Made by a program: the position numbers and the translations under genes. A stretch of DNA of 64,000 nt, from positions 496,001 to 560,000 of the forward strand of contig JAEUTO010000006.1 of assembly GCA_016787785.1 (NCBI GenBank), given 5' to 3'. The notes under the pieces were generated by a model, which did not search any database, was not told the origin of the DNA, and was given only the letters and a program-made list of their open reading frames with translations. The DNA is from Bacteroidia bacterium (lineage in GTDB: Bacteria > Bacteroidota > Bacteroidia > B-17B0 > Aurantibacillaceae). Below are positions 996 to 41,123 of the stretch, in pieces (position 1 is the first letter of the stretch; each line of letters begins with the position of its first letter).

Positions 996-1187
996 AAACA
1001 TAGCCACATAGGAAAGAGGTAAAACTTTACACCTAAGAGTTTACAAAGTCTCTTCGTCTTTGACGAAGAGATCCTATGTTTTCTTTATAAATTTTTAGAA
1101 ATTCCTCCTCCGCCCATTTGTTTTTCTGGACTCCATTTTGCTTCGCAAAACTTCCAAAATAGGACAAGCTATGCGCCTATGTGTTTA
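996..1187. repeat. Palindromic intergenic element, copy A (interrupted)
   Basis: This belongs to the same family as the elements at 33635-33775 and 40968-41123. It has a left arm containing ACATAGCCACATAGG, a central hairpin CTCTTCGTC-TTT-GACGAAGAG (1050-1070, 9-bp stem) followed by CTATGTTTTC, and a right arm CTATGCGCCTATGTGTTTA (1169-1187). The left arm is degenerate. Between hairpin and right arm sits a segment (about 1101-1160) that the other two copies lack and that contains a second repeat class (1120-1151). Confidence 0.7.
1120..1151 (+). repeat. Short dispersed repeat, copy 1
   Basis: The segment reading TTTTTCTGGACTCCATTTTG followed by CTTCGCAAAAC recurs in inverse orientation at 40236-40266, with only isolated mismatches. 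Its core ATTTTGCTTCGCAAAA is a stem-loop. It lies inside palindromic element copy A and looks inserted there. Confidence 0.65.
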
Positions 1188-33606: not shown

Positions 33607-33634
33607 GGTTTAACCACAAAACACTAAGAAAAAT

Positions 33635-33775
33635 TTAACCAAATAGACACATAGTTTTCAAAGTGTAACTAGTTTATAAAAGTAAAACATAGTTATTTTC
33701 TTTGCAAGGCAAAGAAAATTATGTGAACCTTATCTGCGGTTAGCTTTGATCTTTTTCTATGTTTCTATGTGTTTA
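33635..33775. repeat. Palindromic intergenic element, copy B
   Basis: Left arm TTAACCAAATAGACACATAG (33635-33654) agrees with that of copy C at 18 of 20 positions. The right arm CTATGTTTCTATGTGTTTA (33757-33775) is inverted. The central hairpin TTTTCTTTGC-AAG-GCAAAGAAAA occupies 33696-33718. It fills most of the gap before gldM. Confidence 0.8.
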
Positions 33776-40967: not shown

Positions 40968-41123
40968 TTAACCACATAGGCACATAGAAAAAGCATAAGC
41001 AAATCGCCTATTCAATAGTTACACAAAGTTTTCTTCGCGAAGCGAAGAAAATCTATGTTTCCTTGTTGTAAAATAAAATTTATAAGTACTTAAGATCAAA
41101 AACCTATGTGTCTATGTGGTTTA
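40968..41123. repeat. Palindromic intergenic element, copy C (best preserved)
   Basis: Terminal inverted repeats TTAACCACATAGGCACATAG (40968-40987) and CTATGTGTCTATGTGGTTTA (41104-41123) pair at 18 of 20 positions. A central hairpin TTTTCTTCGC-GAA-GCGAAGAAAA (41029-41051) follows the same geometry as copy B. The element fills the gap between two convergent genes. Confidence 0.85.

Follow-up and report, generated by a model that had tools for sequence, protein, structure and literature searches.

We analysed a 64,000-nucleotide stretch of a Bacteroidia genome (the window, G000:C10:496001-560000, where G000 denotes the own genome of 4.6 Mb in 16 contigs) and found that the arms of its three intergenic palindromes, built on the word CACATAG, also bracket a gene for a GxxExxY protein elsewhere in the same genome. 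The association between arms and gene is well supported. It is somewhat probable that the palindromes constitute a non-autonomous family whose arms are the putative recognition sequence for the GxxExxY protein, itself encoded elsewhere between the same arms, and we infer that this predicted nuclease moves the repeats.

All three copies (996-1187, 33635-33775, and 40968-41123) lie where the original prediction had placed them. The order in which it listed their central hairpins is reversed relative to the copies: the stems are CTCTTCGTC/GACGAAGAG in copy 996-1187, TTTTCTTTGC/GCAAAGAAAA in copy 33635-33775, and TTTTCTTCGC/GCGAAGAAAA in copy 40968-41123. The parts of the elements, together with the GxxExxY genes of the same genome, are given in Table 1.

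Table 1. Parts of the three palindromic elements (window positions) and GxxExxY genes of the own genome.
Feature	Position	Strand	Basis or remark
Element 1 left arm (ACATAGCCACATAG)	998..1011	+	arm pattern at G000:C10:496999-497011
Element 1 central hairpin CTCTTCGTC-TTT-GACGAAGAG	1050..1070	.	compared with G018 ortholog
Foreign repeat (CCTCCTCCGC...GCTTCGC...GGACAAG) in place of element 1 right half	1100..1168	.	missing from G018 ortholog
Element 1 right arm (CTATGCGCCTATGTG)	1169..1183	-	sequence and G018 comparison
Probable relic of CACTAAG/CACAAAG-word arm, left of element 2	33612..33626	+	judged by eye
Element 2 left arm (ACCAAATAGACACATAG)	33638..33654	+	alignment and mismatch scan
Element 2 central hairpin ATTTTCTTTGC-AAG-GCAAAGAAAAT	33695..33719	.	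sequence
Element 2 right arm (CTATGTTTCTATGTG)	33757..33771	-	arm pattern
Element 3 left arm (AACCACATAGGCACATAG, word twice)	40970..40987	+	arm pattern and alignment
Element 3 inner CACAAAG ... CTATGT pair	41022..41058	.	encloses hairpin TTTTCTTCGC-GAA-GCGAAGAAAA (41029-41051)
Element 3 right arm (CTATGTGTCTATGTGGTT)	41104..41121	-	arm pattern and alignment
Partner gene, outside window	G000:C12:26513-26969 (L033)		GxxExxY, intact
Second GxxExxY gene, outside window	G000:C6:228520-228847		frame-disrupted, in-frame stops; one-mismatch left arm, exact right arm
Third GxxExxY gene	C10:194070		TACGAAT-word arms

Element 1 is not a plain copy, its right half having been taken over by a second repeat (approximately 1100-1168); the ortholog in the related genome G018 is a plain 135-bp element. 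The hairpin loop of element 1 reads TTT in the window and AAA in the G018 ortholog on an identical stem, which resembles a hairpin flip. Repeats of the second type (CCTCCTCCGC...GCTTCGC...GGAGGA) were seen inside or beside CACATAG elements, by eye at G000:C10:450986-451082 and in G020 (L161) as well as in the window. At the site of the probable relic to the left of element 2, the G018 ortholog has a palindrome with CACTAAG/CACAAAG words. A search of plasmid records with element 3 gave no match. A known structured RNA family was also considered and rejected: four weak E-value matches were obtained in six loci, all under the gathering scores, and within the window Rfam returned no match at the gathering threshold.

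The original prediction called for further copies in the genome, and these are abundant: CATAGNNACATAG arms occur 24 times in forward and 29 times in reverse orientation, compared with 2 and 1 for the reversed pattern, so that the copy number (53 arms versus 3) is far above chance. A mismatch scan of the own-genome arm loci and the window, allowing at most four mismatches over both arms combined, gave 30 two-armed elements of 97-189 bp (median about 134 bp), and the same scan of reversed sequences gave none. In an alignment of 25 copies (the 26 elements of a first, less complete scan, minus the odd L024 and L036, plus window element 2), the arms AACCACATAG(A/G)CACATAG ... CTATGTGCCTATGTGGTT are almost constant, the mean column identity is 53%, and the hairpins align poorly between copies. 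Judged by eye only, the arms in this alignment (AACCACATAG...CTATGTGGTT) carry no constant GTAG or CGTC tag. As dispersed, polymorphic palindromes with conserved arms and a retained central hairpin, the elements are indeed MITE- or REP-like, as had been proposed.

Two observations touch on the distribution of the arms. At G030:C1:2513701-2514557 and 3095184-3095911 the arm pattern is repeated in tandem (periods about 214 and 104 bp), and just after position 1634 of L016 (G000:C6, after 392291) a CTCCGTGCCTCTGTGG stretch, by its look a CACAGAG-type arm, lies downstream of a CACATAG element.

A perfect interior stem of at least 8 bp is present in 24 of the 30 elements, compared with 27 of 1,200 shuffles, and 24 stems are distinct; pairing is therefore kept while the sequence changes, a caveat being that for each copy the best perfect stem was taken. 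From kept pairing it had been concluded that the structure is selected or copied as a fold. The pairing itself stands; selection on the fold need not follow from it, because template switching in replication can also perfect palindromes. It seems to us as likely as not that quasi-palindrome correction through template switching, and not selection for a folded RNA or DNA, lies behind the compensatory changes in the stems. The loop difference of element 1 on its unchanged stem is what a hairpin flip would give, and the Rfam result at the gathering threshold also agrees with this explanation; very few orthologous pairs show such a change, however, and the explanation bears only on the covariation argument and is no rival for the link between arms and gene.

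A TnpA-REP transposase had been suggested as the mobiliser. The PF01797 profile finds no Y1 gene in the own genome, which is scored 100% complete, and the same search gave matches in 5 of 14 control genomes. Y1 genes are present in 30 of 38 genomes, G018 included. Ten of the 12 Y1 loci fetched from relatives were scored, truncated loci being left out: inverted arms exceed the control 95th percentile in three of these ten, and CACATAG stands on both sides in none. With no PF01797 match at home and no paired CACATAG at the Y1 loci of relatives, Y1/TnpA-REP was rejected as the mobiliser in the own genome. The same two results make it highly improbable that these are ordinary REP/REPIN elements with a Y1 HUH transposase (RAYT) as their mobiliser, even if the short palindromes, their many intergenic copies, and the Y1 genes of most relatives would suit such an origin.

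The gene between the CACATAG arms is of a different kind. In the genome-wide list, only one inward-facing pair of exact arms is 260-1,000 bp apart, and it flanks the intact GxxExxY gene on C12 (Table 1), whose ORF of 141 aa ends with a stop codon that abuts the right arm. The C12 protein matches TIGR04256 with E 3.8e-36 and 124 bits (curated cut-off 35), and the GxxExxY protein matches PF13366 with 120.7 bits (cut-off 22); PF13366 and TIGR04256 represent a PD-(D/E)XK nuclease family. An exact-arm pair 2.6 kb apart (C13:430572/433198) proved to be two whole elements, and in 790 kb of G000 and G018 no other gene lies inside a gene-sized CACATAG arm pair (260-3,000 bp apart). Since the interiors of the elements do not clearly resemble that of the cassette (best local score 30, shuffles 27), the elements are not simple deletion derivatives of the cassette. 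A defence-system reading was also considered; PADLOC gave no match for the GxxExxY protein.

Across 29 diverse proteins, E35, Y38, D75, K87, Q99, and N116 are invariant and E85 is found in 90% or more, and these positions include the D...ExK active-site residues (D75, E85, K87). The protein is under purifying selection, with dN/dS of 0.02-0.22 in the 12 of 14 ortholog pairs that have finite dS, which is near saturation in several. An AlphaFold2 model of the G018 protein is of modest confidence (pLDDT 68, pTM 0.59). Its best structure match is Cas4 SSO0001 (Z 6.5 over 99 residues, 4.1 A; Z below 8 is not decisive), and among the matches listed PD-(D/E)XK nucleases lead, including McrC, BglII, BstYI, and Hjc, with unrelated proteins at similar Z. 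A sequence search of the PDB gave nothing significant, the best E being 0.068 (2f8l) and that of Cas4 4ic1 0.79. Eight plasmid records contain a GxxExxY protein, at less than 60% identity. In the passages of the literature that could be searched, with most subscription papers and all preprints lying outside the search, the term GxxExxY is very rare, no function of these proteins is stated, and no link to palindromic repeats is made; the strings CACAGAG and CACCCTGAGC occur in no paper of the literature searched.

The arrangement recurs in relatives. PF13366 matches occur in 49 of 60 genomes, the own one included, with up to 19 per genome, and 113 loci, the fetched subset of all these matches, were studied. 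Inverted arms scored above the 95th percentile of off-gene controls (n = 217) at 88 of the 113 loci and above the 99th at 79, compared with 0 of 25 loci above the same 95th-percentile score for ParE toxins, another small patchy family (25 scored out of 30, truncated loci left out). The GxxExxY arms consist of iterated 7-8 bp words that vary by locus: CACATAG, CACTAAG, CACAGAG, CGCAAAG, CGCAGAT, TACGAAT, CATATAAG, and others.

Arm word and protein are correlated. On a tree of 109 of the 113 proteins (four short ones were left out), the words, which were picked after the arms had been viewed, change 45 times versus a shuffled mean of 82, with none of 200 shuffles as low. This uncollapsed count overstates the case, because several arm words stem from one vertically inherited site: by flank homology, 134 of 6,328 locus pairs are at a common site, and it follows from such common flanks that the CACTAAT loci and five of the six TACGAAT loci are single inherited insertions. 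A Mantel test that is independent of the words gave r = 0.168 without same-site pairs, the maximum of 999 permutations being 0.089. Collapsed to 59 site groups, the tree has 35 word changes versus 45.4 when shuffled (0/200 as low), and CACATAG alone, collapsed to 8 rows, has 3 changes versus 7.6 (0/500 as low); it should be noted that the collapse by flank homology also lumps some unrelated sites. As to concerted change of the two arms, the within-locus score was higher in 38 of 64 pairs, the choice of arms being biased. The co-diversification of word and protein suggests that each predicted nuclease recognises its own word.

Iterated arms also occur around other genes. Four-helix-bundle genes (PF05635, the 23S rRNA IVS protein; L047, L048, L179-L207) have inverted arms above the control 95th percentile in 21 of 28 loci (28 of 31, truncated loci left out). 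Since these are not known nucleases and sit in similar arms, a nuclease is not needed for the iterated-arm layout. Their arm words differ in style from those of GxxExxY genes (e.g., AGTTGGCAG, GTTTCAGG, TTAGGTG).

This similar layout with other words keeps alive the main rival, according to which the GxxExxY gene would be cargo: any sequence with such arms would be spread by an unknown recombinase or by the replication and repair of the host, and the gene would hitch-hike or have inserted there. The GIY-YIG gene that G006 carries between other repeats at the element 3 site (see below) would fit this explanation, and so does the fact that GxxExxY catalysis is a prediction only. We nevertheless consider it unlikely, since in several phyla each protein subfamily has its specific arm word, the 28 four-helix-bundle loci contain no more of the GxxExxY words than isolated single or double matches, the protein is under purifying selection, and no second gene was found between gene-sized CACATAG arms in the sequence compared from G000 and G018.

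The association of CACATAG with its protein subfamily was also observed in a separate collection, which was scanned using eight aligned close proteins, seven of the CACATAG type and one of the CATATAAG type. The scan found 80 loci, of which 7 repeat earlier ones by sequence comparison and 73 are new. CACATAG stands on both sides of the gene in 58 of the new loci, on one side in 9, and on neither in 5, with CACAAAG in the remaining one; control windows have CACATAG on both sides in 0 of 155 cases. Looser words raise the count from 58 to 70 of 73 under a rule that has no control. After collapse by flank, CACATAG is on both sides in 25 of 32 site groups, one of which is a chain of 36 loci. By record title, the hosts of CACATAG-type genes include Flavobacterium, Chryseobacterium, Pedobacter, an Ignavibacteriaceae MAG, and two Pyrinomonadaceae MAGs (phylum Acidobacteriota); this wide spread comes in part from MAG bins, some of them doubtful, and contigs under the titles Rhizobium and Klebsiella (L223, L235) seem out of place.

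The number of spare arms varies to a moderate degree with the gene type present. In 37 genomes of the genus, with gene type assigned by hand from the fetched loci and phylogeny ignored, the median number of spare CATAG arms is 10 with a CACATAG-type gene (n = 17) versus 1 without (n = 20, p = 0.007), and that of spare CTAAG arms is 7 with a CACTAAG-type gene (n = 6) versus 0 without (n = 31, p = 0.004). The main CACTAAG test excludes G006 and G028, whose CACTAAG arms are mixed or one-sided; with these two doubtful genomes added the association weakens to p = 0.035. All six CACTAAG-gene genomes also carry a CACATAG-type gene. Many CATAG arms and no matching-arm PF13366 gene among those fetched were found in G020 (34 arms), G019 (17), G011 (13), and G028 (12).

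Comparison of orthologous sites shows that both cassette and elements differ in presence between genomes. With the C12 cassette in it, the spacer is 580 bp long in G000 and 586 bp long in G018. The same spacer measures 76-99 bp in 12 of the 16 other genomes with both flanks and 127 bp in G021 and G016; the values for G017 and G009 (153 and 258 bp) include flank, because one flank match stops short. This comparison draws on 19 of the 25 loci fetched (a single flank in one case), and G025 and G035, outside the spacer search, also have flank in common with the C12 cassette.

At the compared sites G018 is the relative most alike, its contig C16 being collinear with G000:C10 at about 87%. Between G000 and G018, the same short element is found at three sites (window element 1 among them, with the foreign piece in G000), one common site has a different interior, and one G018 element lies opposite an empty G000 site. 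At two element sites of G000, that of window element 2 included, G018 has a palindrome with other words. At the empty sites in relatives no target-site duplication was recognised, and divergence (about 87% identity) may hide one. At G000:C10:251079-251223 and its G018 ortholog, the two sister species differ in the words of their palindrome, CACATAG in one and CACGAAT/CACTAAT in the other.

The site of element 3 is similarly varied. G018 carries the element; in G020 another repeat, with one residual arm, stands in its place; and G009, G015, G017, and G019 have no CACATAG arm there. In G006 (C1; L162 2174-2545) the site holds a GIY-YIG gene (PF01541, E 9.9e-19) between GTCACCCTGAGCTTGTCGAAGGGT-type repeats. 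A residual CTATGTG arm lies beside this gene, as if it were nested in a CACATAG palindrome.

According to simple ORF calls, the genes neighbouring the 30 elements are arranged in tandem in 17 cases, convergently in 12, and divergently in 1, and many elements of the 26-element set are near stop codons, as 3'-end terminators would be. Such positions could mean that the words are operators by which GxxExxY or a partner controls its own transcription, the dispersed palindromes then being regulatory sequences or terminators that are not mobile. This appears improbable to us: presence differs between sister species at orthologous sites, where other repeat types replace elements, the arms stand on both sides of the gene, and the orientation bias fits the purging of promoter insertions as well.

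For the partnership of palindromes and GxxExxY protein that we favour, a mechanism can be outlined. The protein would bind the iterated word of the arms; the palindrome, extruded as a hairpin or cruciform, would be cut by it; and repair or template switching would copy the element into new intergenic sites. The gene cassette itself remains largely at its site and is inherited vertically, as RAYT genes are.

More tentatively, as a proposal that we take seriously without leaning towards it, GxxExxY proteins may serve as the enzymes of a hitherto undescribed class of mobile systems in prokaryotes, found in several phyla. A PD-(D/E)XK nuclease would read a diversifying tandem word (CACATAG, CACTAAG, CACAGAG, CGCAAAG, TACGAAT, and others), its cassette would be bracketed by that word, and short palindromes would be spread in trans; cassettes with four-helix-bundle or GIY-YIG genes would form parallel classes, competing for the same intergenic sites and nesting in them.

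GxxExxY genes are common (49/60 genomes), small, and unstudied, and through the link to the palindromes a specific DNA target can be predicted for each protein. If true, this link would account for a class of repeats that is abundant between bacterial genes. It would also mean that the REP-type pattern, in which one conserved gene is accompanied by a population of short palindromes, has arisen a second time around an unrelated enzyme.

Among known systems, the bracketed gene itself belongs to GxxExxY (TIGR04256 / PDDEXK_3) by the curated cut-off, a family that the literature passages at hand do not connect with palindromic repeats. The intervening sequences of 23S rRNA, described as a single small ORF between complementary ends (PMC4990558), resemble the cassette in having one small ORF (S23/four-helix bundle, PF05635) between complementary or iterated inverted arms; they differ in protein and words, and CACATAG elements are intergenic and do not lie in rRNA genes. 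MITEs of insertion sequences likewise have terminal inverted repeats in common with a gene-bearing element, dispersed non-autonomous copies, and empty sites in relatives. In contrast to IS-derived MITEs, whose terminal inverted repeats are those of a transposase gene, the bracketed gene here is GxxExxY and not a DDE or HUH transposase, the interiors lack clear similarity to the cassette, and target-site duplication was not recognised.

The closest comparison is with REP/REPIN sequences and their RAYTs ('REPtrons'). There the transposase, the RAYT, is of the HUH type, and a GTAG or CGTC tag marks the REPs (cf. PMC3733652). RAYTs are described as single-copy and vertically inherited (PMC8049555), and TnpA-REP as co-evolving with REP (PMC8266576); a 2025 REP survey lists two Flavobacterium genomes. 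The CACATAG system differs in its PD-(D/E)XK protein, its arms of tandem 7-8 bp words, its elements of about 134 bp, and the lack of a Y1 gene; with a protein other than a Y1 HUH transposase, it does not count as a RAYT system. In layout it is alike, namely in its many short intergenic palindromes without genes of their own, in the one conserved, vertically inherited gene type between the same repeats, and in the co-diversification of repeat and protein. Taken together, the best reading is a REP/RAYT-like partnership with a PD-(D/E)XK nuclease in place of the HUH transposase.
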